A stretch of 64,000 bases of DNA from Bradyrhizobium japonicum USDA 6 (GTDB lineage Bacteria; Pseudomonadota; Alphaproteobacteria; Rhizobiales; Xanthobacteraceae). The notes beneath the pieces are model-generated. The model was given only the letters and a program-made list of their open reading frames with translations. It did no database searches and was not told the origin of the DNA. Location of the stretch: contig NC_017249.1 in the NCBI RefSeq assembly GCF_000284375.1, forward strand, positions 8,177,001 through 8,241,000. The letters are read 5' to 3'. Below, piece by piece: positions 7,377 through 36,746 of this stretch. Position 1 is the stretch's first letter. Each line of letters begins with the position of its first letter. The position numbers were made by a program, and so were the translations under genes.

Positions 7377-7387
7377 TCCGCACTCTC

Positions 7388-8866: not shown

Positions 8867-9054
8867 GTGCGGACCGGTCTGTCGAACAGTGCCAGCTTCC
8901 ACTTGAGAGTCCTGCGCGTCATCTGTTGAAATTGTCCATGCAATCAGGCTACCTTCGATGCACGGTAGTTTGCGTCGCATTTCTGGTCGAGTGGGATGAT
9001 TTCCTGCATCACGCACTGAATTCGCGGCGATATTCACCAAGGGGGGAGCCGTTC

Positions 9055-10229: not shown

Positions 10230-11312
10230 TCACTCTGTAAGGATCGTTGCGTCGTTTTCAATCCACGATGCGACACAGACATCGCCGATGTGGGGCATAG
10301 TGTCGGCAGAGATGTTCAGCACCTTCGACGTCAGCTGTAGTCCTGAATCGCTGCGGAATTGATAGATCGTGGCGTCACCGACGAACGTCTTTTCCACTAT
10401 GCGCCCTTGAATCCCACCCGAGTGTCCGGCGACGAGGCGCAAATGCTCGGGCCGCACACAAAGCGTCGCATCCCTGTCTCCGCCCGTCCATGGCGCGGCC
10501 GGCAACACCTCGCCTGCAGGACCGTGAACGGTGCCGGATTTGAGTTTGGCAGGGATAAGATTTACTTCACCGACGAAACTTGCCACGAACAAGTCAGCGG
10601 GCTTGCGATAGATGTCCTGCGGACAAGAGACCTGCCGAATCCGCCCTTCGTGCATGACCGCGACCCGATCGGACATGGCGAGTGCCTCGTCCTGATCGTG
10701 TGTGACGTAGACCATCGTTTTGCCAACTTCACTATGCAGGGTCTTGATCTCGTTTCTGAGATGCTCGCGCAACTTCCGGTCGAGAGCGCCCAAGGGCTCG
10801 TCAAGGAGAAGAACGGGCGGGTTGAACACGAGTGCGCGTGCGATCGCTACTCTCTGCTGCTGACCGCCGGACATCTGGTGCGGGTAGCGAGAGGCCAACG
10901 CACCCAAGTGGACCTGATCGAGAACTCGGCGGACGCGGCTTTCGATCTCCGCCTTCCCCATACGACGCATACGCAGGGGGTAGGCAACGTTCTCGGCGAC
11001 CGTCATATGCGGGAACAGAGCATAATTCTGAAAGATCACACCGAGTTCGCGCCGGTGCGGTGGCAAACGAGTAATGTCCTTGTCGTCCAGTTGCACCCGA
11101 CCGCTATCCGGCATCTCGAATCCAGCGATCATCATCAGAGTTGTGGTCTTTCCTGATCCGCTCGCGCCGAGCAAGGAGACGAACTCTCCAGGTGAAATGG
11201 AAAGACTGACATCGTCAACGGCCGTCACGCCGCCGTAGCGCTTTTGCAGGCTGTGTAGCGAAATGCCTCCGGTCTTCACTTCGGTACCGCTAACCTTGGA
11301 TGTCATCAACAT
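10230..11312 (-). CDS. ABC transporter ATP-binding protein, polyamine/PotA type
   Basis: This 360-residue ATPase energises a solute importer. Walker A is GASGSGKTT (about residues 49-57), the ABC signature is MSGGQQQR and Walker B is VLLLDEPLGALD. These are followed by the TOBE/OB-like C-terminal domain typical of PotA, PhnT and FbpC-type subunits (NLIPAKLKSGTV, CVRPEHLRL). I chose the ATG at 11312 because GGGAG lies just upstream; an ATG six bases later is possible. It lies 55 bp downstream of the permease fragment. Together they look like part of a spermidine/putrescine, thiamine or aminophosphonate type system. The solute-binding protein and first permease are missing here. Confidence 0.88.
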   Translation of the reverse strand: MLMTSKVSGTEVKTGGISLHSLQKRYGGVTAVDDVSLSISPGEFVSLLGASGSGKTTTLMMIAGFEMPDSGRVQLDDKDITRLPPHRRELGVIFQNYALFPHMTVAENVAYPLRMRRMGKAEIESRVRRVLDQVHLGALASRYPHQMSGGQQQRVAIARALVFNPPVLLLDEPLGALDRKLREHLRNEIKTLHSEVGKTMVYVTHDQDEALAMSDRVAVMHEGRIRQVSCPQDIYRKPADLFVASFVGEVNLIPAKLKSGTVHGPAGEVLPAAPWTGGDRDATLCVRPEHLRLVAGHSGGIQGRIVEKTFVGDATIYQFRSDSGLQLTSKVLNISADTMPHIGDVCVASWIENDATILTE

Positions 11313-11367
11313 TTCAGCTCCCAAGAGTACTTTGAGTACGTTCGCATCTCTTCGTTTGCCCGCGTCG

Positions 11368-12084
11368 TCAGGTTTTCTTCCTGGGGCCCAGCACGGCGCT
11401 GGTGATAATAACAGTCGCGGCAAACACCATCTGCAGCGTGGCCACGGCCGCGATGGTTGGATTTATATCTTGTCTGATCCCCTCCCACATACGCATGGGC
11501 AACGTCGTGATCCGCCCAATGCCAAGGAACAGCACGTAAACGACATCGTCAAATGAAGTGAGGAAGGCGAAGAACACCGCGACAATCAATGCTGGCATAA
11601 CAAGCGGCACAATGATCGTCCGGAAGGTGACCAGGGGACCCGCACCTAGGCTGCGTGCCGCGCGCTCGTATGTCGGGTTCAGATCGCGCAAATTAGCAAC
11701 AACGATCACGACGACATAGGGAATTGCATGGACCGCGTGGCCGAGTGCCAACCCGAGCTCCGTGCCTTGGAGCCCAACTCGCACCAGCACGAAATAGGTC
11801 GCGACCGCTACCACAATGGTCGGTAAAATGATCGGCGAGAGAACGAGAGCAACGACGGCGCCTCGACCACGAATGCCGCCGCGCGACAGACCGAATGCCA
11901 GCATGCTGCCGAGCAGCGTCGCCATCGCGGCGGCCATTAAAGCAACCCGGATGCTAACCAAAGTCGCGCGCACCCACAGTGGATCGGAGAAATAGGTCTG
12001 GTAGTTGCGCAGCGAGTAGTGCAGTACCGGAAAGACGAAGTAAGACGACGCGCTGAACGACAGGTAGGCGACAATCAGGCGCAA
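11368..12084 (-). pseudogene. ABC transporter permease (PotC type), N-terminus cut off
   Basis: The 238 visible residues form a binding-protein-dependent permease. They include several hydrophobic helices and the cytoplasmic EAA loop (YERAARSLGAGPLVTFRTII) that docks on the ATPase. Family members begin with a cytoplasmic segment and a first helix ending in a YLSFSASSYFVFP-like stretch. Here the sequence enters directly at IVAYLSFSASSYFVFPV, so roughly the first 20-25 residues are gone. Immediately upstream is the recombinase remnant on the other strand. The ATG used at 12084 is probably accidental. Loss of the first helix should inactivate the transporter even though the ATPase gene is intact. 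Confidence 0.8.
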
Positions 12085-13054
12085 GCCCGACAGACGAGCT
12101 TTTCGAATGCAGCCGTTGGCAACGCATTCCTGACCGCACTAGCGCCTGTCGAACTAGATGCTTTATCGCGTTCCCGCCGGGTCCAGCAGCAGATGAACAA
12201 TGCGTTACGCTCCAGCGCAGAACGTGAGCTCGAGCGCAAGCGGTACACGACGGCGCTTGCTGAACGGCAGTTCAACCGAGCTGATCCAGATAATCGGCTG
12301 GTCGCCTCGGAACTAGAGCGTCGATGGGAAGCGGCCTTAAACGACTTGCGCGCCGCCGAAGAAGCGCTTGCCCGACAGACGCCGTCCACAGCCATCACGC
12401 GAGTAGCCATAAGCAAGGAGCTCAGCGACAAGGTCATCAACCTCACCGGCCGCCTCGCGCAGATATGGGGTGACGAGACTGTTTCGGACGCGCATCGCAA
12501 GGCTTTGTTGCGATGCCTCATTGAAAAGGTCGTGCTCGACCGTGGTGAGCACGACCTGGCCCTGGCCAGGATCGTCTGGCGCGGAGGCGCCGTGACGGAG
12601 CTCGAGGTGAAGATGAGCGTCAACTCCGTCACCGGATTGACACGAGGCGCGGAGATGCGGGAGCGCTCGCTGGCGCTCGCCCGCGACGGCGTCCCAGACG
12701 ATGAGATCGCCGCAATCCTTACCCAAGAAGGCCACCGCTCTCCCCGTTGCGCCGATAAAGTGCTGCCCATCACCGTCGGGCGGCTCCGTCGTGCTGCGGC
12801 CATCAAGGTAGCTAGCTAACGCAGCCGATGGGAGCATGACGGCTCACTCCTCAGCCCGCCCGAACTGGCCCAAAGGCTCGAGATTCCGGTGAACTGGCTC
12901 TACGTACAGATCCGAACTAAGCTTTTGCTGATTGATCGCCAGCCATCTCTTCCCGAATACACCATCCGTTCTTGATGCTATCGGAGAGTTTCGAAACCAC
13001 GTCAATGATCTAAGAATCTGTCAACCTAACAAGGAGGGGCATCAACATGGGTGA
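12085..13054 (+). pseudogene. Large serine recombinase, C-terminal part only
   Basis: The fragment matches the C-terminal half of a large serine site-specific recombinase. It has a long charged coiled-coil-like segment (RYTTALAERQFNRADPDNRL, then LVASELERRWEAALNDLRAA), a conserved EKVVLDRGEHDLALARIVWR region, and a helix-turn-helix-like tail LLSPPELAQRLEIPVNWLYV. The catalytic serine domain is absent because the element joins the ABC permease at about 12085. An in-frame TAA at 12817-12819 interrupts the tail. A later frameshift leads into a segment starting PSVLDAIGEFRNHVNDLRIC and ending PNKEGHQHG, with a stop at 13054. This is dead DNA from an integrated element. Confidence 0.75.
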
Positions 13055-13334
13055 TCGAGCAGGTAGCCAAGCTGGGCTGGGGTGACCGTCACCACGCCAT
13101 CAGCCGACGATGGCCAGAGAAAGCGGCCGGGCTCAAGCCGCTTGGCATAGAGCGACATGCCCAGCCCATCATGCCAAAGGATCTTGATCAGCTTGCCGCT
13201 CTTGCCACGGAACACATAGAGGTCGCCGCCGTGCGGGTCGCGCCTAAAGGCCTCCTGCACCAGCAAGGCCAGCGAGTTCATGCCGCGGCGCATATCGGTG
13301 TGGCCACCCGCACGCCCGAGGCAATGGGGATCAC
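13042..13334 (-). pseudogene. IS66 family TnpB, frameshifted and 3'-truncated
   Basis: TnpB (IS66 Orf2) is recognised by GGHTDMRRGMNSLALLVQ, LYVFRGKSGKLIKILWHDG and GRFLWPSSADGVVTVTPAQL. Translation would begin at the GTG at 13334, overlapping the TnpA stop as GTGA, which is the normal IS66 arrangement. The start gives VIPIASGVRV and then leaves frame: compared with family members, about 13 bases that would encode the W-[LV]-A segment before GHTDMR are missing. The C-terminus is also cut where the gene meets the recombinase stop at 13054. No TnpC follows. Confidence 0.75.
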
Positions 13335-13735
13335 CGCGGCCGTCCATCTGCCAGCGCCGCCACGGCGGCCTTCAGCGTCGCCGCGTCGGCCACACCCGTG
13401 ATCCGCATCCGAGCTCCGGTCGCAAACTCGATCGCCCCGCCGCTGCTGGCCGGCGCGACGGGACAAGGCATCGGTCCCGATTCCGGGACCACCATCGCCG
13501 ACACGAAGTCAGGTTGTTGGGTGGCATCCCTCGGCTCGGCCCGAAACGAGCGTCGCCATCGCAGCAGCAATGAGCGCGAAACGCCATATCGCCGCGCTGT
13601 TGCCGCGACCTGGCGCGGCGCCTGTAAGCTCTCCAGGACGATCTTGAGCTTCTCATCCTCGGACCAGCGCCGCCGCCGGCCTGTATCCACTACTTCGAGC
13701 CGTTCGACTTGGGCACTGCGCCTATCACTGTCCAT
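13331..13735 (-). CDS. tnpA: IS66 family TnpA (Orf1)
   Basis: This 134-residue protein is the small DNA-binding subunit of IS66 transposition. An HTH region of IS3/IS911 type lies near the N-terminus (RRRRWSEDEKLKIVLESL, then VAATARRYGVSRSLLLRWRR, about residues 14-55). The ATG at 13735 gives a start MDSDRRSAQ. The frame is open 27 bases further upstream. Its stop overlaps the start of tnpB. The accessory tnpB is broken and tnpC is absent, so this IS66 copy cannot move by itself. Confidence 0.8.
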   Translation of the reverse strand: MDSDRRSAQVERLEVVDTGRRRRWSEDEKLKIVLESLQAPRQVAATARRYGVSRSLLLRWRRSFRAEPRDATQQPDFVSAMVVPESGPMPCPVAPASSGGAIEFATGARMRITGVADAATLKAAVAALADGRPR

Positions 13736-13775
13736 AAGGACAGTTCTCAACAACCGCCTCATTCGGCAAGGCGGC

Positions 13776-13784
13776 CTTCACCGG
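13776..13784 (+). repeat. Left target-site duplication of IS4-like element
   Basis: The 9-bp sequence CTTCACCGG directly precedes the left inverted end of the IS4-like element. The same 9 bases follow the right end at 15359-15367. A 9-bp duplication is characteristic of IS50/Tn5-like IS4 elements. Confidence 0.85.
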
Positions 13785-15358
13785 CTTTCAATTACCCATA
13801 ACTTTGACCACTCGAGCTGATCCGCTGATCGGCGAAATCTTGAATCGAAAGAATCACTTGTGATTCCTTGCTGAGCACCTGATTCGCGAGGGGGTGCTCT
13901 ATGGGGCTGACATTAAGGGATCGATCGACAAAAGGCTGTTTGCGGTCTTTAAACAGGGAATGTTGGATTGATCGAGAGAGTAGTGGATGCGAGTTTAGGG
14001 ACGCGCGGCTCGGCGACAGATTCCGCAAACTGCTCACGCAGATTGGAAGCGCCATGGGACAAAGCATTCCGCTCGTCTGCCAGGATTGGGCGAATACCAA
14101 GGCAGCCTACCGCTTCTTCTCTAACGACCGGGTCAGCGAAGCGGACATTCTGGCCGGACATTTCCGATCGACACGTGATCGTGCCGCCGCCACTGAAGAT
14201 CTCGTTCTTGTGCTGCACGATACAACCGAGTTCAGCTATCAACGCGAGAAGTCAGAAGCGATCGGCATCACCAAGAGCATAAACAATGGACGGGATAAGG
14301 CAGGTCGCCTCAGATCGCACACCGTTTGCGGCATCCTGATGCATTCGAGTTCGCGGTTACAATCGAGGGGGTGCCGCTGGGGTTGGCGGCCGTTAAGTTC
14401 TGGACCCGGAAGAAATTCAAGGGGACGGCAGCGCTTAAAAAGAAGATCAGTCCGCCCCGGATTCCCATCGAGAAAAAGGAAAGCGTCCGGTGGTTGGAAA
14501 ATCTCAAGCAGTCTACGCAACTCTTGGATCGTCCGGGACGATGCATCCATATTGGTGATCGCGAGAGTGACATCTACGAACTCTTCTGCGCAGCACAGGA
14601 GATCGGAACTCATTTTGATCAGGACCTGCGTCGACCGCTTGGCTGGAGACGGTGATCACACCATCGCCGACGAAATGGACGAGGTCGCCGTCAAAGGGCT
14701 CCATCGCATCGAAGTCAGAGACAGCAACGGCGATCCCGGCCAGGCCGTTCTTGAGATCAGGTATCGCAAGATTCGCGTTCTGCCGCCGATCGGAAAGTAG
14801 AAGCGCTATCCCGCTCTCTGACCCTGACAGTGATCCATGCCGAAGGGCGCGGGAGGCCGAAAGACAGAAAAAAGATCGATTGGAAACTGATCACCGACCT
14901 GCCTGTTGGTTCCCTCACCGACGCCATCGACAAGATGGATGGTATAGTTTGAGATGGAAGATCGAGGTGTTCCACAAGATCCTCAATCGGGCTGCAAAGC
15001 TGAGGAGTCGAATCTTAGGACCGCCCAGCGTCTGACCAACCTGATCTCGCTCTTTTGTATCCTGAGTTGGCGGGTCTTCTGGATGACGATGCTCAACCAC
15101 TCCGCCCCAGACGCGCCACCAACCCTCGCGTTGACTGCGACTGAAATCGGCGTGCTCGATCGCCTCGTCAACGACAAACCAAGAGCAAGACGGAAAACGC
15201 TCTCGCACTATCTGATCAAGATCGCCCAGCTCGGCGGTTATCTCGCCCGCGCCAGCGATCCGCCGCCCGGCAATACGGTCATGTGGCGCGGGCTGTCACG
15301 CCTCACCGACATCGCGCTGGGCGCGATGGTCGGAGGAGAATTTGTGGGTAATTGAAAG
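13785..15358 (+). mobile_element. IS4 family (IS50/Tn5-like) insertion sequence, complete ends
   Basis: A 1574-bp element with perfect 14-bp terminal inverted repeats, CTTTCAATTACCCA at the left and its complement TGGGTAATTGAAAG at the right, extended imperfectly inwards. It is flanked by the 9-bp direct repeat CTTCACCGG. The ends and duplication are intact, so it arrived by simple transposition into DNA just upstream of the IS66 tnpA gene. The transposase gene inside is frameshifted. Confidence 0.88.
13970..15355 (+). pseudogene. IS4 family transposase, several frameshifts
   Basis: The plus strand encodes a Tn5-type DDE transposase in pieces. The first frame carries ARLGDRFRKLLTQIGSAMGQ, then CQDWANTKAAYRFFSND and LVLVLHDTTEFSYQ (first catalytic Asp region). 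The second frame (14326-14655) carries FAVTIEGVPLGLAAVKFW and HIGDRESDIYELF (second Asp). Further frames carry RLAGDGDHTIADEMDEVAV, TVIHAEGRGRPKDRKKIDWK, and WYSLRWKIEVFHKILN with the catalytic Glu (YREK-like region). The last piece, LTNLISLFCILSWRVFWMTM to the stop at 15355, is the C-terminal dimerisation region. At least three frame changes make it inactive. Confidence 0.8.
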
Positions 15359-15367
15359 CTTCACCGG
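15359..15367 (+). repeat. Right target-site duplication of IS4-like element
   Basis: CTTCACCGG repeats the 9 bases at 13776-13784 immediately outside the right inverted end. Confidence 0.85.
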
Positions 15368-15675
15368 ATGGATACACCTAGAGACGAATGGGCCTCCGAC
15401 CAGAGAGAGTGGTCAGCGCTCGGCGCGTCTCACTGCTCCGGCAACCCACAGCAAGGCGCAATCGAGATCGACTATTCGGGCGAGGCGTGATGCGGATCCG
15501 CAAACGCCGCGCCCCTAAAGCTGCAGTCGCGACATTGGCAAGCTATGGCAGCGATGATCCCGATGCCGTCACCCCGATGGATCGCGACCCGAAACAACGC
15601 CTGATTGCGTGAAGATCTGAGCAACCGTCGAGCTTCACGCATCCGAAGTTGTTCCCGTCCAAGCTACAGGATTGA
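15368..15675. other. Short region without a recognised gene
   Basis: The DNA encodes short open frames (for example RIRKRRAPKAAVATLASYGS on the plus strand) but no family is recognised. It was contiguous with the upstream side of the IS66 remnant before the IS4 insertion, so it may be IS66 flank. Confidence 0.4.
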
Positions 15676-16691
15676 TCAACCGATAAGAGCCGACACGGCG
15701 TTTGCGCATCCCCAAGAGAGACTAAATCCGGACCCACCATGTCCGTAATTATGGACGATGCATGTACCCGTCCCTAACACCTCTCGTTCAAGCCTGATGC
15801 CAGACGGCCGTACTGGTCGCACCCCGACCACGAGTTGTCGGGGCCGTCCGCTTGCACTATCCCGAACCCAAGGAACGTAGCGGCCGGCGCGGGCTACTAC
15901 GTCTGACCACTTGATACTTTCGACGAGGTCATTCAGGCCAGCCTCCGCACTACCGCCAATCATGACCTCTCCCCCCTGGGTATCACGTAGGCCATGCCGT
16001 CTGGATGGTCGTCGTCTCCAATATATTCGGTTGGCGATCCGTCATTGGATGCAACCACAAAGTATTGCCCTTTGTAGGGTTCAAAAGCTTCGTCGTTGAC
16101 GAGGCTGGCGGCTCCCAATCCGGTGCAATTTACGACAATATCGTGTTGACAGCTGAGATCAGCCAAGCGCTCGACGTGCTGTCGCCTGAACTGCACGTTC
16201 CTCTTCTCGGCCTGCTCGACCAGCCAGTTCAGATAAGACGACATTTTCGCCGCCGGCGCCTTCAATCGGTACCCCCATTTCACAGGGGCATTCGAAAGTG
16301 AGCTCATGGAGCCATGGAGCGCGCCTTCCGGCTCATTAAACCTCCGCAGCTCGTCATCTGTTAAAAATGCGAACTCGGGTGGAATATGCGACCAAGCGGG
16401 CACATGCCTCCGCTGGGCTCTAAAGAGCTCAACGCCACGAATGATTTCGACGCCGGATTCTGGATAAAGACGGGATATATCAATCAATCGTTGCAGCGTC
16501 ACCGAAGACCACACAAGTACTTCCGCGGTTTCCGGGACGAGATACACGTGCCACACAGCCGTGGCTTTGACCGAATCAGTATCGGCTCCGAACTTGTCAG
16601 CGATGATCTGCACTTCATACCGGCTGGCTAGTACGATTGCAGTGGTAAGACCTACGACACCAGCTCCCACGACGCAGATCGACTTTGTCAT
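15676..16691 (-). pseudogene. FAD-dependent D-amino-acid oxidase, one-base frameshift
   Basis: The sequence matches D-amino-acid oxidases of the DAO fold, which oxidise D-amino acids to oxoacids, ammonia and peroxide. The dinucleotide motif VGAGVVGLTTAIVLA is at residues 7-21, a central VVNCTGLGAASL motif is near 190, and the C-terminal signature is [17 protein letters not shown]. The frame breaks near 15965 inside a run of six G: adding one G turns PRGERS-stop into [15 protein letters not shown] and restores one protein of about 338 residues. It is the last gene of the six-gene operon and overlaps the aldolase stop by 4 bases (ATGA). The deletion could be a true mutation, slippage at the G run, or a sequence error. 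Confidence 0.85.
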
Positions 16692-17407
16692 CGGGAACCC
16701 CTCGTATTTAAGAGCACACGCTGAAACGCCTTGAACAATTTTTCTGCGGCCGCGGCACGATCTTTGCGCAACTCCGTTGCTGTCTGCGTCACCACATGAT
16801 CCGGAGGCGTCAATGGAGATCCTCCCAGCGATAGAGCCAGAATCTGCACTCTACATGCAACTTCCATATAATGCTGCAAATAGACCGCTTCCTCGATGTT
16901 TGGGGCCACGACGAGGAGCCCATGGTTGCGCAGCAGGCCAACTCCTCCTGTCTCAAACAGTCCCATGAGCGCAGGGTCAATCTCTGCCTCACGGAACAGT
17001 CCCTGATACTCGACACAGATCGTTTCAGAAATGAGTTCGACGGCTGTCTGCGAGACAGGAAGAAGCCCTGCGGAGGTTGTGCCGACAGCCAACGCATTTT
17101 CGGAATGCGTGTGTAACGCGCTACCTGGTCGCGCCCGCACCTTATGAATCAGCCGATGAAGCCTATATCCGTCGGCATTCACACCCAGCTTTTCTGGATT
17201 CAGCTTGTCAATTTCATCGAGAGGAACCGTGATCCAGTCCGATGGCCTCATTTCAACGGCAAGAACACCATCGGGATTCATGGAAACAAAGGTGCGTCCT
17301 CGACCGTCGACCCATGCGGTTGAAATGTGATTAAATATTGCGTCGACGTAATTCAGCTTTCCAAGTATTCGCCATGCATCTGTCATCTTGGCGTTGACGA
17401 GGTGCAT
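16688..17407 (-). CDS. Class II aldolase/adducin domain protein
   Basis: This 239-residue protein belongs to the class II aldolase/RibE-epimerase fold, zinc enzymes that split or epimerise sugar phosphates and similar hydroxy compounds. The first metal-binding pair is in ALHTHSENA (about residues 98-100) and the third His in LLRNHGLLVVAP (about 160). The N-terminus has NYVDAIFNHISTAWVDGRG, the family substrate loop. The gene starts one base after the NACHT gene stop, and its own stop overlaps the D-amino-acid oxidase start. It is therefore translationally coupled on both sides. Its substrate is unknown. Many family members outside sugar metabolism act on 2-hydroxy or 2-oxo acids, which would suit the neighbouring dehydrogenase and oxidase; this is an inference. 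Confidence 0.85.
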   Translation of the reverse strand: MHLVNAKMTDAWRILGKLNYVDAIFNHISTAWVDGRGRTFVSMNPDGVLAVEMRPSDWITVPLDEIDKLNPEKLGVNADGYRLHRLIHKVRARPGSALHTHSENALAVGTTSAGLLPVSQTAVELISETICVEYQGLFREAEIDPALMGLFETGGVGLLRNHGLLVVAPNIEEAVYLQHYMEVACRVQILALSLGGSPLTPPDHVVTQTATELRKDRAAAAEKLFKAFQRVLLNTRGSR

Positions 17408-17408
17408 G

Positions 17409-20078
17409 TCACTTCCCTCGCTCAGCGACGCAAAGTCTTATTCCAAGATCTTCATATGCATTGTATGGAGGATCAAAGCTTCTGAACGTTATTTCCGCCG
17501 CTTCGATCTCGGACGATAGCCACGAGGATCCGCGCGCAACCCGATCATCCAGGCCACAGACGTCTGCTTCTTGTCGGAACGTCTCCTCAGAGTATGGCTT
17601 TGCTTTTGAAAGCGTCCATTCCCAGACATTGCCGACGATATCATGAAGACCACTCGAATGAAACGGAAAGAGCCCTACAGCGCAGGGCCGAAGGGCTCTC
17701 GCCTCCTCGCTATTTTCTGCCGCCCGCAAATGAGCGTTTTCGTAAGGGGCCCCCTCCGTCCAGGGATAGGGATTGTCTCCACCCAGCTGCTGGGCCACGC
17801 TCTCCCACTCGGCTTCTGTCGGCAGACGGACCTGTTGATCTTTGTCCAGTTTTCCCTGCTTGCGAAGCCGGGCGTCGATCCAGCTCGCATAGGCCAGCGC
17901 CTCCCACCAATTCACCCCGACAACAGGTTGATTGGGCCTGTTGTGTGAAGGGGCAGACCAGTACATCGGGGACGATCGCTTTATCATTCGCTCGCATTGA
18001 TCCGGGAAGTCTTCAGCAATCAGGCGCTGCCCAAGCACTTCACTCGTGAGGTGCGTCGGTGCGACGTCCCAAGCCCGGTTCAGGACGGCATTGCGGACGT
18101 CATCATCACCGCTTGCCCACGCCCATCCTTCGGCACTCTGCCAGTGCTCCCGTTGCTTGTAGCCTCCATCAGCCAGGAACTGCTTGTATTCGGCGTTGGT
18201 CACCAAGAACGCCGATAACGCAAAGCGGCATAGCATTCCCTCGATCGGTGGTGAGGCCGGGACGCTCGAATATTTCGTTATTCTGGTGATATGGTTGGTC
18301 GATCGCCCAATCTGCCTAGGGCCGGCCTCTACCCAGAATAGCCTCGAACTGAACTCGGCCTCGAGCCTCGGGTCGCCTAACGTGCCCAGAAGATCGCCGA
18401 TCCGCATCCTCTTCGAGAATGGCAAAGAACGCCTGCTCAGCCACTTGAGCAGCTCGGATTGGGTCGCCAGGATCCTCTGTTTGAGGTCCCGCATCAAGCT
18501 CTGACCATGCGTGACGGATACCACTTCGCTGAGCATTTCGGCTCTAGCCAGAGCAGCTTCGATCGTACGGCTTCCAGGCCCCCCTCTCAATTCACCAACG
18601 AAGGCGTTTATTTCGTTCTTTCCTTCTTCGCTTGCCGCCCGCAGTCCGGCCCAATACCGTATCGGCGCATGCCACTTCTCGAGCAATGCGTAACCACGTC
18701 GCTGGGTGACCGGTCGCTTCGCCAACGCATAACCGGCCAGCACCTCGCGAAACACGTTGTGGGCGAACTCGTATTCATTTCGCCGCATCGGCTGCAAGAT
18801 GCCATGTCCGCGCCGGATATGAGCCGCAATACTCGTGATGAGGTTTTCCCGGGTTTCGAAGGCCGTCGCTTCCGAGAGCCGGCAGGTGTCTTTTGAGACG
18901 CGCCGAAGATCTTCGTCAGTCAGGATCTTTGTCCCGCCCTGTGCGAGCCGTTCCTGCGCCGTGAAGGCGGCTTCCGCAAGCGCGTCCAGAATCCAGCTGC
19001 GATGGTCGGTAACGAGAAGCTTCTGATCGCCGAGCAGGTGCTTTTTCATGAAGAGCCGGTCAACAGCCCTGAGGCACAATTGACTCACAGACGACGGGAT
19101 ATCCCGGCTCTCGTCCGAATAGATCGTTTGCAGGATGTTAAGCATCAACGGCGTCAAGCAAACAGCACCGAGCTCGGAGTTCGTCGAAATTGCATTGGCT
19201 ACATCGAGTTTGCGTTTCTCCAAATCTGCTGTGCCAAGCCTTTCTTCTGCGCGCAGTCGAATCGCAACGTCGTGCCAGCGAACCACTGCTTCCTTTGCCT
19301 GTTCAGGCGAGAAATTGGAGATTTCAAATAGGGCCGCGGGCCTTATCTTGGTTCGATCGTCCTCGTGCCAGTCGGCCACGCGGCTGGTCACAATTGTGCT
19401 GAGGCGACCTGTACGGAAGCTTTCGTTGTTTGGGATGTTGACGCTTCGTATCAAGGAGGCAGCCTCAATCCGTGTTGGGATTTGGTCGCCGGCTCCGTGC
19501 GTCATTGGAAGCTCGTCCAGGCCGTCGAAGATCAATGTGGCGCTCTTGAGGGATTTTTCCAATTCGAGGAGCGCCCCTTCGTCCAGCACGAGACCAACAG
19601 CTCGCACTGCACATTCTACGATCGCCCGCTGATTGGTCCTGTCCTTCAGCTTCAAAGACGCGAGTGGCACGTAGAACGCAAAGCGGTCTAGCTTGCTCGC
19701 AAGAAATTCTTGAGCAAAGCTGGTGGTCAGGAACCGAGCGAGGGTCGATTTGCCATATCCCGGATGGCCAATCACGACCGCACATTGCTCTGTGGTCGTC
19801 CAAAGAGCATTTATATCCCGCTCGACATTTCGTTCATCGGCGGTTCGGAACGTGGGCGGCACCCATAGCTCGCGGAGATTGCTACGCCGGGCAGCAGCTC
19901 GACCAGACCGATCGAAGACGAATTCGGCAGGGTCTCCGTACTCCAGGCTATCCAGCTTGGCGATCGCTGCAGCCAAATACTGTGCCTCGCCGTCGGCGAG
20001 TGATCTTCGAACGGAAGATGATGATGGCGCTACTCTGATCACTTTCTCTTCAGGAGTTCGCTCCCTTGGCGCATCCAT
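17409..20078 (-). CDS. NACHT-domain NTPase fused to FGE/sulfatase-modifying-factor fold
   Basis: This 889-residue protein combines a STAND NTPase with a C-terminal formylglycine-generating-enzyme (FGE/SUMF1) fold. A leader of about 70 residues has no known domain. The NACHT core has Walker A GHPGYGKST (about 104-112), Walker B LIFDGLDELP (about 182-191), the sensor-like TIVTSRVADW (about 228-237) and a winged-helix/helical region with EYEFAHNVFREVLAGYALA (about 435-453). From about 575 to the end runs the FGE fold: VTNAEYKQFL, VGVNWWEALAYASWIDARL, RLPTEAEWE, GLHDIVGNVWEWT and ARGSSWLS. Active FGE has RGGSWLC at the last position. Here it is Ser, so the copper-binding cysteine is missing and catalysis is doubtful. 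NACHT proteins act as ligand-triggered oligomerising switches, often in phage defence. The gene is embedded in a metabolic operon. Confidence 0.88.
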   Translation of the reverse strand: MDAPRERTPEEKVIRVAPSSSSVRRSLADGEAQYLAAAIAKLDSLEYGDPAEFVFDRSGRAAARRSNLRELWVPPTFRTADERNVERDINALWTTTEQCAVVIGHPGYGKSTLARFLTTSFAQEFLASKLDRFAFYVPLASLKLKDRTNQRAIVECAVRAVGLVLDEGALLELEKSLKSATLIFDGLDELPMTHGAGDQIPTRIEAASLIRSVNIPNNESFRTGRLSTIVTSRVADWHEDDRTKIRPAALFEISNFSPEQAKEAVVRWHDVAIRLRAEERLGTADLEKRKLDVANAISTNSELGAVCLTPLMLNILQTIYSDESRDIPSSVSQLCLRAVDRLFMKKHLLGDQKLLVTDHRSWILDALAEAAFTAQERLAQGGTKILTDEDLRRVSKDTCRLSEATAFETRENLITSIAAHIRRGHGILQPMRRNEYEFAHNVFREVLAGYALAKRPVTQRRGYALLEKWHAPIRYWAGLRAASEEGKNEINAFVGELRGGPGSRTIEAALARAEMLSEVVSVTHGQSLMRDLKQRILATQSELLKWLSRRSLPFSKRMRIGDLLGTLGDPRLEAEFSSRLFWVEAGPRQIGRSTNHITRITKYSSVPASPPIEGMLCRFALSAFLVTNAEYKQFLADGGYKQREHWQSAEGWAWASGDDDVRNAVLNRAWDVAPTHLTSEVLGQRLIAEDFPDQCERMIKRSSPMYWSAPSHNRPNQPVVGVNWWEALAYASWIDARLRKQGKLDKDQQVRLPTEAEWESVAQQLGGDNPYPWTEGAPYENAHLRAAENSEEARALRPCAVGLFPFHSSGLHDIVGNVWEWTLSKAKPYSEETFRQEADVCGLDDRVARGSSWLSSEIEAAEITFRSFDPPYNAYEDLGIRLCVAERGK

Positions 20079-20097
20079 CTGTTCCTCGCAATATCCT

Positions 20098-20712
20098 CTA
20101 CGAATCTCGCATACGCGGAAATTGGCTCAGCGCCGTCAGACTCCCGGTCGCGGAGCGTCGCCAATAACCGCCTTCCCGAGACACAAAATACAGGACCGGT
20201 TCCGGGATCTGGCTCAGCTCCCGATCGTCCAGCAGCGGCACATTGAATGTGTTCTGGTTGGGCAAAATCGGCCTTTGCGTATCCACCAAGGGCCGGCCCT
20301 CAGCTTCGACCCGCCAAAGATAGATCGGCGCCTTTGTCAGGTTCTGTATTTCGAGATCCCATTGCCGACCCCGCACCAGATCTGTGACATCCTCTTTCAC
20401 AAGCTGCGACGTAAGCCAGAAATAGACCGCCGTCTGTTCATCAATCGACTTCTGTTCTTGTTCCTTCCGATTTTTCCCAAACTGCCAGATGAGCGACACC
20501 AACGCGGTCATTACGCCGAGAAACGTCGCGCTACCGGATACAACCTGGCCCCAGGAGCCGAATTTTTGATAATCAATTGCGCCGAGCCCAATGCCCCAGT
20601 AATTGAGCGTAACGAGCATCAAACAGAAGAAGAGCAGCAGCAGAACAGCTACCCAAAGTAACGCGAACACGATCTGGTCAGTCGTGCTGCGCCGCAGTTC
20701 AGGGCTGCGCAT
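20098..20712 (-). CDS. Two-helix membrane protein of unknown function
   Basis: The product is 204 residues with two predicted transmembrane helices, about 13-36 (IVFALLWVAVLLLLFFCLML) and about 55-74 (VVSGSATFLGVMTALVSLIW). They are followed by a basic/acidic linker KNRKEQEQKSIDEQ and a soluble C-terminal domain of about 110 residues that is probably cytoplasmic. I do not recognise the family. It begins 6 bp after the dehydrogenase stop and ends 19 bp before the NACHT gene. A small membrane protein directly coupled to a STAND NTPase would be a natural membrane-acting effector or anchor for it, but this is an inference from position only. Confidence 0.75.
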   Translation of the reverse strand: MRSPELRRSTTDQIVFALLWVAVLLLLFFCLMLVTLNYWGIGLGAIDYQKFGSWGQVVSGSATFLGVMTALVSLIWQFGKNRKEQEQKSIDEQTAVYFWLTSQLVKEDVTDLVRGRQWDLEIQNLTKAPIYLWRVEAEGRPLVDTQRPILPNQNTFNVPLLDDRELSQIPEPVLYFVSREGGYWRRSATGSLTALSQFPRMRDS

Positions 20713-20718
20713 TTTCGA

Positions 20719-21675
20719 TCACCTGACCCTATAGGCATCCTTGCCAAACTTGATCATGTTGATGATCGATGCGACCGCCCGGTTGGCCATCGCATCCCGC
20801 GCATCGCTTGTGAGCGAGGCAACATGGCCGGTTATCATCAGCCGCGCCGGTATGAGCAACTTGGCAGCAGCGGCGATCTCGGGCTGCTCGTAGAACCCAT
20901 CGAAGGCAGCATAGCCGAGCTTTCCTGACGAAAGGGCGTCCAACAAAGCTGTTGGGTCAACAATCTCGGCGCGCGCGCTGTTGATCAGAATGAGCCCGGG
21001 CCTGAACCTGTCAAACTGTCTTCGCCCGATCAAACCGCGCGTTTCGGTATTGCCTGGTGTCATGACAATCAGGACGTCGACACTCTCCGAAAGCTCGTCA
21101 AGCGGCCGGTAAGTCAACCCGAGGCGCGCCTCCTCGGCAGGCTTTCGCGTTCTTGAGAAGTAAGAGACGGGACAATTAATGCCGAACCTAAGAATTTCAG
21201 CAATACGGATGCCAATGCCGCCGAGGCCCACGATTCCGACATGCAGATTCGCCAAGTCTCTTTGTTTTTCTTCCTTCCCGGAATTTCCCTCAGAGTATGC
21301 CAGCGCGTATTGATGGATGCGGCGGGTCGAGTTCAAAAGCAGGCCGATTGTGAATTCTGCAACGGCATTGCTGAGAGTACCGGGCGTGTTGGTGACTGCA
21401 ATCCCACACCTGTCAGCCGCATCGGCGTCGATAAATGATTGATACCCCATTCCAAGAAAGGCGATTATCTTGAGTTTCTTTGCGCCTTGAAGTGCCTTTG
21501 CTGTTGCAAACTCGTCTCCGCCCAAGAGGTATCCCGCCTTGTCGGCCAGGGCTGCCGCGAGTTCATCCTCAGATAACAGATGAGTCGGATTCTCGACCAC
21601 AAACCCCGCTTCAACCAGCGGCTTTAGCAATTCCTTGCGGACGCTCGTGCCAGTTACCAAGATCTTGTCTGACAT
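20719..21675 (-). CDS. D-2-hydroxyacid dehydrogenase (second type)
   Basis: This 318-residue NAD-binding dehydrogenase has the Rossmann motif GIVGLGGIGIRIAEIL (about residues 145-160). The catalytic Arg is in NSARAEIVD, Glu in FYEQPE and His in TGHVASLTSD. The ATG at 21675 follows AAGGAAG with 6-base spacing and gives MSDKILVTGTSV, so the longer open frame upstream is rejected. It follows the haem-oxygenase-like gene by 16 bp and precedes the membrane protein gene by 6 bp. Its place in the operon suggests reduction of an oxoacid or oxidation of a hydroxyacid made by its neighbours. It differs from the 4557-5522 enzyme and is not a recent duplicate. Confidence 0.88.
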   Translation of the reverse strand: MSDKILVTGTSVRKELLKPLVEAGFVVENPTHLLSEDELAAALADKAGYLLGGDEFATAKALQGAKKLKIIAFLGMGYQSFIDADAADRCGIAVTNTPGTLSNAVAEFTIGLLLNSTRRIHQYALAYSEGNSGKEEKQRDLANLHVGIVGLGGIGIRIAEILRFGINCPVSYFSRTRKPAEEARLGLTYRPLDELSESVDVLIVMTPGNTETRGLIGRRQFDRFRPGLILINSARAEIVDPTALLDALSSGKLGYAAFDGFYEQPEIAAAAKLLIPARLMITGHVASLTSDARDAMANRAVASIINMIKFGKDAYRVR

Positions 21676-21691
21676 GGTCACTTCCTTTTTG

Positions 21692-22429
21692 TTAAACGCC
21701 CAGCTGCGCCTCGCGCAGCAGCTCGTCATAGTAGCGCACCCTCGCGCTGACGCCGTCCGACGCGCCGGCCAGGTACTGCCGCGCGTCATAACCTAGCTTT
21801 TCAAGCGCGGTCGCCGCTTCAGCGATGAGGCGGGTATGCGCCTCGTCTTCTCCAATGTTCGCGTGAAGGAAGCTTTTGTAATCTGCTGATGGCAAAGCGG
21901 CATCGAAACAAGCCTCCACGGCTCGGTATTCGGCGAGAAGCATTTGCTCATTTCCGACACCAAGAGCTCCAAGCGCTCGCATTGGGTCAGCCTCGGTTTG
22001 CTGCAAAGCCTCGATGAAAGATGCTACCGCCTCGGTTACTTTGACCGGTCGATCTGATAGCCCAATGGACCTGCACAACTTCCAAATGAGCCACGGGTGA
22101 GAACGATCTGCGATCCCGCCACGAACTGAGCTGTGCTCGCCATCGACGACCGGCATCAGGAGTGAGCGAACGTGAACATTCGCAATCCTGGCAATCACTC
22201 GGAGCAGGATCTGCGAAAACGGGTTGGTGACGACAGCCTCCTGGCTCGCCCAAAGCGATAGAGCATCTGGGTGATTCTTTGCGTACTCGAAAAAGGGATG
22301 TACCTCTATTCTAGCGCGCCGCTCAATCGCTTCCGCTTCGGCAATGAATGGGGCAATCGGCCAATGGACAATTGGCTGGAAATATTTGTCCACCGGAAAC
22401 GCGGTCCTTGGCAACGCATCGCTATTCAT
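21692..22429 (-). CDS. Haem-oxygenase-like di-iron/iron-dependent protein
   Basis: The 245-residue all-helical protein resembles the haem-oxygenase-like superfamily that includes PqqC, TenA, CADD and the di-iron oxygenases (HDO) such as UndA, SznF and BesC. The likely metal ligands follow the HDO pattern: Glu and His in IEVHPFFEYAKNHP (about residues 37-50), Glu in LLAEYRAVEACF, and His/Glu/His in HANIGEDEAHTRLI near the C-terminus. HDOs use iron and oxygen to cleave, N-oxygenate or otherwise rearrange amino-acid-like substrates. The ATG at 22429 is preceded by GAGGGA; an ATG 15 bases upstream is also possible. It is the first gene of the six-gene operon. Assignment to a particular reaction is not possible. 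Confidence 0.75.
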   Translation of the reverse strand: MNSDALPRTAFPVDKYFQPIVHWPIAPFIAEAEAIERRARIEVHPFFEYAKNHPDALSLWASQEAVVTNPFSQILLRVIARIANVHVRSLLMPVVDGEHSSVRGGIADRSHPWLIWKLCRSIGLSDRPVKVTEAVASFIEALQQTEADPMRALGALGVGNEQMLLAEYRAVEACFDAALPSADYKSFLHANIGEDEAHTRLIAEAATALEKLGYDARQYLAGASDGVSARVRYYDELLREAQLGV

Positions 22430-23867
22430 AGTTTCCCTCAGCATTCCGGCCCCCCTCCGTGCGAGCTCATAATAGAATCAAAGTACGTATTCACCGCGAC
22501 TTCATCGTCTTTCGCAGCACTCCAATCTGCTCAAGGCCCAGAAGCACGCCCATCATGACAGGTTGTGAGATTGGGGGCGCACGGCGCTCTTCATTTAAGA
22601 TGACACTAACGCAATGGCGAGCGGCTGCGGGGCCCTTACAACAAATGCCACCTATTCGTCCAATACCGCCTTCCTGGTACCGGCCTTGCCCATCCCGCCG
22701 AGCCAAACCCGGAAATGTTCGCAGATGGCTGCTTGCAAGACGTTGCGCATTTTCGGCGGATCGAAGCCCTACCTGCAGTTCGCTGCTCGACCGAGCTTTT
22801 TTAATTGGAACAGCGACGAGAAATTGCGAAACAAACGGTCAAACGGCGCAGGAATTCAGCGATTTTTTAAGTCTTTGCGCAGCATCGAGGCCGACACCAT
22901 CATCTGGAAAACGTCGCGAGCTCACGAGACCGCGGTCCCTCGGGGCGCCCCCTGGGATGTCGTGAGCCGAACCAGCTCCTGATAAGGAGCGGGCAGCGCT
23001 GGAGACCAGGCTCCAGGGCGAATCCGCCGGCTTCGCCTCGGCGCTTCGCGTCGCAAGCTGGCGCGTACGAATGGCGGGTTAGACACCTGGTCCAGGTTGG
23101 ACCAAGGAGAAGGTTTCGATCGGGGCTTCTGGCAACAGCACGGTTTTTCATCGTTCAGTACAACGCTGGAGCGACACCGTCATCTCCGCTTCGGCCAGGA
23201 ATGGCTGCGTAACGGTGCCCCCAAGAAGGCGCAGCGCAAGCATCCGATCAACAGCTAAAGAGTGGAAGATCGGCAACCTGTGCGAGGCCGTAAAGACAGG
23301 GAATGACCTGCGTTCTCTGCTTATCGATCTTTGCTTATCGATCTTTGAGAACGCATTGATGAATTGCAGCGGGATCTCGCGGCCGGCCCGCGCGCTGTCC
23401 CCGACGTGCTTTGCGGGGGAACAGCCATGAAACAACTCTCGACCTTGATAGTTTTCGAAGCGAAATCCGCCATATAGTCTCGGTCACGCGCAGATTCGGC
23501 CTCATGAGAACACAGTCGGGTGACGAAGAAGCATTCGCAATGTTACTCTGCTGGCCAGCACTCTTGAGCAAATCTGAAACATGGACCGCTATTCGCGCTT
23601 CGCTGAACCTGACGTCCACGTCGAGAGGCCTTTAAGACGCGGGAACGCGACGCAGCGCGGATATTCGCTTCGCTCAAGGGATGCTGTCGCAGCGAGCATG
23701 CGGGCAAGGCGACTGGCCGAGGATCAACAAGAGAGTGTAGAACGAGAGCACTGCCAAGCAGCTCCTGCATAGGCTCGCGCCCGTCAGTTCGATCGGCTTG
23801 CGTTTTCTCGAATCGCAGCCTCGTCAGAGGCTACGCTGCTATAAAACTCTGTACGTAAGGAGAAGTC
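22430..23867. other. 1.4 kb without a supported gene
   Basis: This region precedes the six-gene operon and should hold its promoter near 22440-22560. Open frames on both strands are short and have no recognised signatures or good ribosome sites. I see nothing else I can support. Confidence 0.5.
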
Positions 23868-24293
23868 ATGCCGGACATCGTCGTAACGGATGTAATCGCC
23901 TCTTCCATGGTACAGGCGATCGAGCGGCGTAATGAGGACTTCGGTGGTGTTATCACCGCCGTGGGCAATAGCCGGCCCATGGCCGTGGTATTACAGGATT
24001 CCCAAACCAAGCGCGCTCTCGGCGGTGCGATAGGACTTTCATCGGCACGAGTGCTGTTCCTGGACTCGTTCTTTCTGCCAAGGCAATTGCGCGAAAGGGG
24101 TTTGGGAAACGCGATCTTGAAGACATTTGAAGAAGAGGGCCGACAGCGCGGCTGTCGATCGGCCTTCCTTTACATCGTCAATTTTCCGGATTTCTACACG
24201 CGGAACGGATGGAAGGCCTCCGGCCGAACGCCTTGCGACCCGCCCGGAGCATTCCGCGTTTTTATGACCAAGAGCCTGGAAGCGCGCTCATAG
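23868..24293 (+). CDS. GNAT family N-acetyltransferase
   Basis: This 141-residue protein has the GNAT fold, which transfers an acyl group from CoA to an amine. The central strand and CoA-binding loop are LDSFFLPRQLRERGLGNAIL (about residues 65-85, with the R-x-x-G-x-G-type pyrophosphate loop RERGLGNA). It is followed by CRSAFLYIVNFPDFYTRNGWKASGR, where Tyr is the usual general acid. AAGGAGAAG precedes the ATG at good spacing. It stands alone and converges on the KamA-family gene about 570 bp away. Lysine aminomutases are sometimes paired with an acetyltransferase (AblB), but this protein is about half that size and convergently placed, so a link is not supported. Confidence 0.85.
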   Translation: MPDIVVTDVIASSMVQAIERRNEDFGGVITAVGNSRPMAVVLQDSQTKRALGGAIGLSSARVLFLDSFFLPRQLRERGLGNAILKTFEEEGRQRGCRSAFLYIVNFPDFYTRNGWKASGRTPCDPPGAFRVFMTKSLEARS

Positions 24294-24866
24294 CCTTCTT
24301 CGGGCCAGAATAGCTGGATAAACCAGATAATTGCCCAAAAGAGCTCCCACATCGCAAATTCGGATGGCTATCGTTCGCTGTTGCGACTCGCAGCTGCGTG
24401 GATGTGGTCGTAAGACGAGCGAAACAGACGGATGGCGTCTCGGAACCAAACTCCAAAATGAACTATATGCGTGCGACGAAGGCCTTGGCCGCATGCAGGC
24501 CTGAAATCGGCATCAAGCCGAACAAGAAATGCGCTTCGAAAGCTACGAATGCGGCCTACTGAGCAGGGTCGTCCCGACGCCGTACTCTCACTGGAACGCA
24601 TCCCCAGCGTGGCACCGGTGTCAATTTGAGCCGTGCCCTAACTATCAAAGGCCGATATCATGTTGTCTCGGGAAGGACCGGGATTGGGAGCAAAACTCTC
24701 CAGCTCAGCCAGGGGCCAACAAGGCCACATGTCGAGAATCTGCAGTAGTGAGGTGGCTTGCCCTGCACTGCGCGACGGAGGTTCAGCCGGGCTTGGCGGC
24801 TCCGATGAGCGTCGCCGGCGCGCTGCACTCGCTCGAGTCGTAATCAGCATTGAGCGCCGTTAGATC
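24294..24866. other. Intergenic between convergent genes
   Basis: About 570 bp between the convergent GNAT and KamA-family genes. No gene or strong terminator hairpin was recognised. Confidence 0.5.
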
Positions 24867-25961
24867 TCATTGTTCTGGCAGATCGTCCAACCAGCAGGCA
24901 GCCTCGACGTGAGGCCGGGAAAAGATCTGTCCGATCTTCTCGGGAACTTTGTTTTGATGGTATCGCATGTACACGCGGCCATCGTCTCCCAAATCCAGGA
25001 TTTCGATCTTTCCCGTGTAATGAGACATGATGTATTTGAACGTCTTCTCGATGCCACTAAGGCGCTGGTTGACGCTGCGCGCAATCTCTATTCCCCGTCG
25101 GAGCGCAACCTGAAAATGGGATGCGCCCTTCACCGGCCTCGCTTGAAAGAGGTAGTAAGGGCGCACTCCGGTATCGTGGCATTTGGCGAACGTTTCTGCG
25201 AGGATTTTAGGGTCATCGTTGACCTTCGCGAGAAGTACGGCCTGGTTGAGGAACTGCACGCCTTGCGCTCGCAACGAGCGAACTTTGTGCTCCGCATCGG
25301 ACGAGATTTCACCCACGTGATCGAAATGGGTGACGATTATCGGAGTTTTGCCTGCCTTGTGAATCCGCTCGAACAGTGTCGGCAGAGCGGAATCTTCAAA
25401 CCGCCTTGGTTGATAGGCCAGCATTTTTGTGCCAAATCTGATCGAACTCAAATGATTGATAGGCAGCAGGTGGTCAAGGATCCTGTTCAGCTTGGCCGTA
25501 CTAAGCACGAACGGGTCGCCTCCCGATAGTAGCACGTTGGTCATCTCAGGATGGCGAGTAATATACTGCGCGACCTGATCGAAGTCCGGTGCGATTTCAT
25601 CGGAAGCCTTGCCCACGATACGCTTGCGAAAACAATAACGGCAATATGAACCGCAGCGTTCCGTCACCAGCAACAGGCCGGTCTGCGGGTACTTGTGCTG
25701 CAGTCCCGGAACGACCGTGTTGTCGTGTTCGCCGCTCGTATCCAAGGTGCCTGGGCTCTCGAACTCGTCCAGTGAGGGCTCTACAATGCGCTTCAGCTGA
25801 TCGTAGTACCTGCCTTTGGCAATCTGCTCGCGATAGAACTTTGTGACATGATAAGGCGTGATGTTGTTGATCTGCAGTTCGCTCTCGCTAACTTCGCGCG
25901 TTTCTTCGATGAACTTCAGTACGCGTGCTTTGCAATCCAGCGGATCAGCTATGGTTTCCAT
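24867..25961 (-). CDS. KamA-family radical SAM 2,3-aminomutase
   Basis: The 364-residue protein is a PLP- and [4Fe-4S]/SAM-dependent aminomutase of the KamA family, which moves an alpha-amino group to the beta carbon. The cluster motif CGSYCRYC (CxxxCxxC) is at about residues 103-110, the SAM-binding LLSGGDPF at about 145-152, and the PLP lysine is probably in HYTGKIEIL. Lysine 2,3-aminomutase uses two aspartates (293 and 330 in the Clostridium enzyme) to hold the substrate side chain. At the aligned places this protein has Arg (YYLFQARPVKG) and a hydrophobic residue. Lysine is therefore an unlikely substrate and an acidic amino acid more likely; this is an inference. A GAGGTG lies just upstream of the ATG. 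The frame is intact. Confidence 0.85.
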   Translation of the reverse strand: METIADPLDCKARVLKFIEETREVSESELQINNITPYHVTKFYREQIAKGRYYDQLKRIVEPSLDEFESPGTLDTSGEHDNTVVPGLQHKYPQTGLLLVTERCGSYCRYCFRKRIVGKASDEIAPDFDQVAQYITRHPEMTNVLLSGGDPFVLSTAKLNRILDHLLPINHLSSIRFGTKMLAYQPRRFEDSALPTLFERIHKAGKTPIIVTHFDHVGEISSDAEHKVRSLRAQGVQFLNQAVLLAKVNDDPKILAETFAKCHDTGVRPYYLFQARPVKGASHFQVALRRGIEIARSVNQRLSGIEKTFKYIMSHYTGKIEILDLGDDGRVYMRYHQNKVPEKIGQIFSRPHVEAACWLDDLPEQ

Positions 25962-26544
25962 TGCAACACCTCGTCCGTCCTGATCAGCGCATTTGATCGG
26001 TACGATCTGCTCGTCTACAGTACAGCACCAATAGTAGATCGATACCTACCTGGTGTGGTGAGGGCTACCAAATGCGAGAGTTGAGAGAGGCACTCTCGTA
26101 CTCGCCGGATAGCGGGGTGCCGGGGATCAGGGCGCAGCGGCGTGCCTAAATCGTTGCCATTAGTCGACCGCGCGAGCATGCCGAAGGTACGCGACAAGCG
26201 CGCGCAAGCTTTGCCGCGCGTACAAACCCGATCGCCGCCTGCTGAAGCAAGGTGAACACCAACCCTGATTTCGAAGCGCTTTTTGAAACGCGCTCATCGA
26301 TGATCAGAGCTCTGTTCTTGCGGGCCTCATATTCATGAGGTTCTTCACTGTGCTAGGCCCCTTTTGGACAGCGCCTCGCAGCCACAGGCTCGACCGCTCC
26401 ATCTTTTCACTATCCAGCACAGATCCAGAGAACGCGGGCAGCCAGAACGCCTCGCCCCCGGGCGAGATCAAATCGGAAAGGTGGGTGACGTCGTCTCAGA
26501 ATCGCCGCGCGACTTCATCGGAATCAGCACTGGGTTCCAGATAC
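25962..26544. other. Intergenic, no gene recognised
   Basis: About 580 bp between the KamA-family gene and the truncated end of the group II intron. It should contain the KamA-gene promoter. Short frames only. Confidence 0.45.

Positions 26545-34276: not shown

Positions 34277-36746
<2,470 letters not shown>

Follow-up and report, generated by a model that had tools for sequence, protein, structure and literature searches.

The described systems closest to the locus reported here are putative conflict systems in which a STAND/NACHT NTPase carries a C-terminal FGE domain of the C-type-lectin (CLec) fold; in the parts of the two sources on which we draw, some of these are diversified by retroelements, and in some the effector is thought to be recruited in trans (PMC10907252, PMC7159879). 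The same fusion, here called the NACHT-FGE protein, is encoded by a six-gene operon of Bradyrhizobium japonicum USDA 6 that lies within a 64,000-nucleotide stretch of contig NC_017249.1 (positions 8,177,001 to 8,241,000; this whole stretch is referred to as the window). Compared with the conflict systems as those parts portray them, the FGE domain here is not variable but better conserved than any other part of the protein, and the linked neighbour is an HDO-like (heme-oxygenase-fold) enzyme rather than a peptidase. The sulfoxide or selenoxide synthases EgtB, OvoA and OvsA share the FGE-type domain (33% identity over 231 amino acids to EgtB 4x8b, with the substrate Asp kept) and differ in that NACHT-FGE has NACHT in place of their DinB domain, for which Pfam gives no match. 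Animal NLRs (NOD2, NLRP3 and NLRC4) carry leucine-rich repeats where NACHT-FGE has its EgtB-type domain, and the part of NACHT-FGE ahead of its NLR fold is too short to hold a CARD or PYD. Structural alignments of the HDO-like protein with the HDO superfamily (CADD, HrmI, BesC, PolF) give 12-15% identity. On a plasmid of Alisedimentitalea scapharcae, a NACHT-FGE gene is likewise the last of a tightly packed operon that includes an Fe oxygenase and a D-amino-acid oxidase (DAO); its enzymes are otherwise different, and its DAO is no close match to that of the window (BLASTP E 0.003). NACHT-FGE architectures are known and so are HDOs, but their coupling is not described by title or abstract in the open-access papers searched, nor is any system with the whole gene set, as the initial annotation of this DNA had stated.

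We find that the HDO-like and NACHT-FGE genes look, judging from shared contig sizes and parallel divergence, like a conserved pair, and that every operon gene is under purifying selection between two species-level genomes. Our best reading of the operon, which we hold tentatively as plausible but short of probable, is that an NLR-type switch senses a small molecule handled by the operon itself. The operon is a minus-strand unit running from 22429 to 15676, and its open reading frames (ORFs) bear out the initial annotation in coordinates, strand, gene order and spacing, with intergenic gaps of 16, 6, 19 and 1 bp in the order of transcription and then a 4-bp overlap between the aldolase and DAO genes. 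The gene names given there are supported by Pfam for all members except the protein with two putative transmembrane segments (2-TM), which has no Pfam family above the cut-off, and the DAO gene, taken there as a single open gene, is in fact split by a frameshift near 15,960 into two ORFs (16691-15960 and 15963-15676). The features of the operon are as follows.

21692..22429, minus strand: HDO-like (heme-oxygenase-fold) enzyme, 245 amino acids, Haem_oxygenas_2 above the Pfam cut-off; an alternative ATG upstream at 22444 is possible
20719..21675, minus strand: D-2-hydroxyacid dehydrogenase, 318 amino acids, PF02826 (2-Hacid_dh_C) and PF00389 (2-Hacid_dh) above cut-off
20098..20712, minus strand: 2-TM protein, 204 amino acids, from hydropathy
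17409..20078, minus strand: NACHT-FGE protein, 889 amino acids, Pfam NACHT and FGE-sulfatase above cut-off, and a structure model
19272..19793, minus strand: NACHT domain (residues 96-269), its Walker A and Walker B both invariant
17433..18335, minus strand: FGE/EgtB-type domain of the C-type-lectin fold, residues 582-882
17433..17546, minus strand: frozen end of the FGE domain, residues 845-882, with D869 and N873
16688..17407, minus strand: class II aldolase/adducin-type enzyme, 239 amino acids, PF00596 at 98.6 bits (cut-off 22.2)
15960..16691, minus strand: DAO-like FAD oxidoreductase, piece 1, 243 amino acids, PF01266 at 70.9 bits (cut-off 27.9)
15676..15963, minus strand: DAO-like FAD oxidoreductase, piece 2, 95 amino acids, PF01266 at 26.1 bits (below the 27.9 cut-off), profile positions 267-352

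In the protein database, where the NACHT-FGE search scored the 8000 candidates sharing most words, we identified 33 NACHT-FGE matches, of which P0001-P0029 were counted as the family, together with 67 HDO and 7 2-TM clusters. Linkage was assessed by comparing the size, exact to the base, of the longest contig of each protein cluster, a comparison that does not read gene order or distance on those contigs. A partner of exactly the same contig size among the 67 HDO clusters exists for 16 of the 29 NACHT-FGE clusters, compared to a mean of 0.048 matches (maximum 1) when the sizes are shifted by 1-200 bases. The distance matrices of the two proteins are correlated (r = 0.80, 18 pairs; 0 of 5000 permutations reach this value), and the correlation is again 0.80 for the 14 distant pairs (0 of 5000 permutations); one distant pair, P0007/P0057, comes from a metagenome-assembled genome of Pyrinomonadaceae, going by its source name. 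Thirteen of the 29 NACHT-FGE clusters are unmatched, and among contigs of at least 7 kb the unmatched clusters number 10 of 26 for NACHT-FGE and 11 of 27 for HDO; because each cluster shows one contig, these are not evidence of absence, yet they add no support. The 2-TM protein shares 2 contig sizes with NACHT-FGE and 4 with HDO, all in near relatives. The initial annotation had proposed that the six-gene unit would be accidental if NACHT-FGE and 2-TM homologues occurred mostly without the enzymes, or the enzymes without them: linkage to HDO holds for the 16 clusters, that of the 2-TM protein holds near home only, and the remaining enzymes are present in the window and in the related genome G213, with no match in 40 other genomes.

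The NACHT-FGE protein models as an NLR fold with an EgtB-like domain and without an N-terminal effector (pLDDT 80.6, pTM 0.81). Its ATPase core has the Walker A residues G107, G109, K110 and S111 and the Walker B residues D185, G186, D188 and E189, all invariant, as expected of a STAND/NLR protein. Structural alignments with NLRs begin at residues 23-29, and the stretch ahead of them is too short for an effector domain of the kind found in characterised antiviral STANDs; residues 1-20 are modelled at a pLDDT of about 41 and contain no Pfam domain. Mean pairwise identity is highest in the C-terminal domain, which has the FGE/CLec fold (0.57, vs. 0.47 in NACHT, 0.47 in the helical part and 0.41 at the N-terminus), and reaches 0.83 in the last 38 residues of that domain (845-882; 23 rows), with D869 and N873 present in 25 of 25 aligned sequences. 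D869 aligns with the D of the W-D-x3-R stretch of EgtB, which we take to be Trp415, Asp416 and Arg420. Asp416 is a substrate residue of EgtB in the part of the structural account used here (PMC4768315), so that the substrate Asp has its counterpart in all 25 sequences.

The pocket end is frozen, as would be expected of an active site, and one alternative is that NACHT-FGE is itself a pathway enzyme or scaffold, whose EgtB-type domain helps to make the product while NACHT only regulates or assembles. FGE-fold precedents named for biosynthetic pathways exist, the nearest folds including, besides EgtB, PvdO and the toxoflavin-biosynthesis protein ToxD, and the NACHT-FGE gene stands among enzymes in two different operons. 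The C-terminal cysteine pair is the active site of FGE, and the iron-binding His of EgtB sit in its DinB domain. The window's genome has eight FGE-sulfatase matches, the window's own included (ORFs of 265 to 911 codons); two of them (L001 and L002) look canonical and have the cysteine pair, but alignment with these two paralogues shows the pair to be absent from NACHT-FGE, and the aligned family rows have no Cys in the corresponding stretch. The EgtB iron is held by three His, according to the part of the source consulted (PMC4768315). With the cysteine pair absent and no DinB match in Pfam, NACHT-FGE as an active FGE or EgtB was rejected; an NLR-type ATPase would, moreover, be an unusual enzyme regulator, and we regard an enzymatic or scaffolding role as fairly improbable.

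The linked HDO-like protein has the heme-oxygenase-like fold. The HDO motif is H-x3-D-x2-H; N191, conserved in 65 of 65 sequences, occupies its first His position here (N-x3-D-x2-H). The residues H44, H86, H99, H111, H198, E64, E98, E161, E167, E194 and D195 are likewise kept in 65 of 65. The dimetal site of CADD consists of three His and three carboxylates, going by the portion of the source used (PMC11965152), and the fully conserved His and carboxylates of the HDO-like protein would be numerically sufficient for such a site. A PDB sequence search with the HDO profile returned no relative and one chance-level match (E 0.21). By hydropathy, the 2-TM protein is hydrophobic over approximately residues 8-46 and 56-79, with no further stretch of this kind in its C-terminal part, and nothing was found for it in NCBIfam, PADLOC or PHROGs.

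The nearest NACHT-FGE relative with readable context is that on the Alisedimentitalea scapharcae plasmid (NZ_CP123587.1, locus L066; 27% identity, 89% coverage). It is the last of a seven-gene run spaced by -17 to +26 bp (L066:4043-12400), in the order 2OG-Fe oxygenase (WelO5-like), methyltransferase, class I/II aminotransferase, DAO, RidA, a protein of no assigned family and NACHT-FGE. The sister protein retains the D-x3-N pattern at its FGE end and has an N-terminal hydrophobic segment of its own; its NACHT domain scores 26.2 bits, just below the Pfam cut-off of 26.7, and 3.4e-37 with the NACHT-region model of the window's family. No HDO was found at this locus and no 2-TM gene is annotated there. 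The unassigned protein (8680-9558) carries a motif suggestive of Asp/Glu racemases, with no Pfam or PDB support. Neither of the two more distant STAND-FGE loci read, from Thiodictyon and Herpetosiphon, has enzymes of this amino-acid type alongside.

A restriction-modification pair lies near the sister operon, as might be expected if these loci served phage defence, with the FGE domain allowing NACHT-FGE to detect infection, either the 2-TM protein or the enzymes acting as effectors that kill or arrest the cell, and the enzymes making or destroying a metabolite as a weapon. Bacterial NACHT proteins protect against phage, and FGE/CLec-STAND NTPase fusions have been proposed as invasion sensors, in the parts of the sources drawn on (PMC10907252, PMC7159879); NACHT-FGE is also rare and patchy, and transposase fragments lie just downstream (left) of the operon, at 13331-14800. 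However, the domain that is hypervariable in retroelement-diversified sensors is the best conserved part here, and PADLOC-DB 2.0.0 gave no system match for the five operon proteins scanned (DAO pieces excluded), the only matches being marginal (the NACHT-FGE P-loop, E 0.058 over 28 residues, and the dehydrogenase, 7.7e-4 over 53 residues). Pfam results for 32 window proteins include no recognised defence gene besides NACHT-FGE, viral contigs contain no relative of NACHT-FGE or HDO, and phage records contain none of the sister NACHT-FGE. We consider phage defence unlikely. The initial annotation had offered two readings, a pathway whose metabolite is sensed and an immune system that uses a metabolite; both survive, with the evidence leaning to the former, though without proof.

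Comparison with G213 shows that this genome carries all six genes in the same order (locus L064), within a collinear block that also includes a KamA-family gene.

15375..26096: block collinear with G213, containing the operon and the GNAT-like and KamA-like genes, with short gaps near 23266-23588
24867..25961, minus strand: KamA-family radical SAM protein, TIGR00238 at 207.6 bits (cut-off 199.2)

The block consists of two long pieces, with 93.5% and 92.5% DNA identity. The ratios of nonsynonymous to synonymous substitution rates (dN/dS) between the window and G213 are 0.047 for HDO (the strongest constraint), 0.17 for the dehydrogenase, 0.28 for the 2-TM protein, 0.14 for NACHT-FGE, 0.18 for the aldolase, and 0.12 and 0.13 for the two DAO pieces, so that the part of DAO beyond the frameshift is also under purifying selection; in G213 an intact single ORF of 338 amino acids occupies the same place. 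The KamA-family (lysine-2,3-aminomutase-like) gene, 2.4 kb upstream of the HDO gene on the same strand, is 96.7% identical in G213 (dN/dS 0.12) and may or may not belong to the system. A GNAT-like gene in the same block (23868-24293, plus strand) is found in L064 as two pieces in different frames and is maybe broken there.

Within the genus, NACHT-FGE is present in 2 of 265 genomes (the window's own and G213), and within the family sample in 1 of 198, again the window's own; the named close homologues come from Bradyrhizobium. In a set of 41 genomes taken partly from the genus and partly from the wider order, G213 lying outside it, the window's genome alone gave a match to the aldolase (E <= 1e-30), to the dehydrogenase (E <= 1e-50) and to DAO (E <= 1e-30); since all three are also present in G213, these enzymes, as far as tested, accompany NACHT-FGE and are absent elsewhere. 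The HDO profile matched 1 of 397 genomes of the order and 1 of 318 of the class (the window's genome, G000, both times), and none of the 270 genomes searched in the class of G452, with no positive control in the last search. The NACHT-FGE query P0007 matched 0 of 8 genomes and 0 of 396 in the phylum of an Acidobacteria genome, with no positive control in either. In the large genome searches (genus, family, order, class, Acidobacteria phylum and G452 class) scoring covered the best 2-10 first-look candidates per genome, and weak relatives may have escaped it. A genome-contig scan with NACHT-FGE gave 53 loci, mainly FGE-domain matches, none of which has the family's NACHT region at E 1e-3, and plasmids gave no HDO and no 2-TM match.

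The operon as a product of pure chance was rejected, because its order is common to G213 and HDO and NACHT-FGE are linked on contigs. A milder version is that the neighbourhood is accidental or decaying, a mobile HDO-NACHT-FGE pair having ended up next to catabolic genes of the symbiosis region that have nothing to do with it, in a unit that is being lost. The frameshift in DAO here fits this view, as do the transposase fragments to the left, the 2-TM gene as the least constrained member, and a truncated HDO: the close homologue P0104, on a contig of 9,199,961 bases, is shortened to 135 amino acids with its C-terminus altered as by a frameshift, so that HDO is also broken in some genome. Yet G213 has all six genes in common with the window, where neighbours lie 1-19 bp apart or overlap by 4 bp; every one is under purifying selection, and the three remaining enzymes have no match in the 40 other genomes searched. 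We consider such an accidental origin very improbable.

The reading that we prefer, that of a switch sensing the operon's own small molecule, is proposed because of the linkage of HDO and NACHT-FGE, the frozen EgtB-like pocket and the parallel sister operon. The operon would make or consume a small molecule, probably an amino-acid derivative, with the HDO-like oxidase, D-2-hydroxyacid dehydrogenase, aldolase and DAO acting on a linked set of amino-, oxo- and hydroxy-acids. In NACHT-FGE, the EgtB-type domain may bind one of the pathway compounds in a pocket equivalent to the substrate pocket of EgtB, and binding would let the NACHT ATPase exchange nucleotide and assemble. Since NACHT-FGE has no N-terminal effector, the output would have to come from a partner in trans, for which the adjoining 2-TM protein, acting at the membrane, is the likeliest candidate, the two grounds for a membrane output being this neighbour and the hydrophobic segment at the N-terminus of the sister protein.

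Several observations weigh against this proposal. Contigs of the same size point to linkage but do not reveal how the genes are ordered or how far apart they lie, and parallel divergence would also follow if both genes were simply inherited along with their host lineages. The dehydrogenase, aldolase and DAO were traced in the window and G213, where they are present, and in 40 other genomes, where they have no match, and the 2-TM protein only into near relatives. Amino-acid-type enzymes stand beside STAND-FGE at 1 of the 3 distant plasmid loci read. The pocket end (residues 850-876) is modelled at a pLDDT below 50, and with N191 in place of His the diiron chemistry of HDO is not certain. With DAO broken in this genome and HDO broken in P0104, the pathway may not be needed everywhere. 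The ligand, substrate and output are inferred, as are sensing, assembly, the 2-TM protein as the output and every step that leads from ligand to output.

The window lies within one 9.2-Mb contig, and the G+C content of the operon is 55.9%, vs. 58.8% for the window. A single nodA match at 8,093,223 is about 100 kb from the operon (about 8,192,700-8,199,400), which therefore probably lies in or near the symbiosis region. Control of the operon by sigma-54 or NifA was rejected, there being no minus-strand pattern match upstream of the HDO gene, and sigma-70-like matches in 15300-26500 show no excess (4, vs. 4.6 in shuffles). Mobile-element remains extend over 12019-15355 and comprise an HTH_Tnp_1 ORF (13331-13762), a transposase-DNA-binding ORF that looks broken (13901-14800) and an ORF at 12019-12819 that is 87% identical in L064 and has no Pfam family, leaving its recombinase label without Pfam support. 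An amino-acid/polyamine-type catabolic cluster on the minus strand (4557-12084) encodes a second D-2-hydroxyacid dehydrogenase, a class III aminotransferase, a succinate-semialdehyde-dehydrogenase-like enzyme, and the ATPase and permease of a polyamine-type ABC transporter. Further along the minus strand are an IS21-like pair (34277-36633; an IstB-type ATPase and a Mu-transposase-C-like protein just below cut-off), the sigma-54 factor RpoN (44992-46488) and a LuxR-type autoinducer-binding regulator (48740-49525).

NLR-type proteins have been studied mostly as sensors of invaders. It is conceivable, although we consider it doubtful, that the HDO-NACHT-FGE family and the Alisedimentitalea locus are two independent members of a class of effector-less NACHT ATPases that have an EgtB-derived ligand pocket, reside in amino-acid operons, sense the product of their own operon and signal to a membrane partner, serving metabolism instead of, or besides, immunity. 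An NLR-like ATPase linked to an enzyme of an oxygen-using superfamily, with a frozen sensor domain, offers a tractable case in which an NLR may read a self-made small molecule. If this is true, machinery of innate immunity would be tied to small-molecule pathways, and the HDO partner would provide a chemical handle for the ligand.

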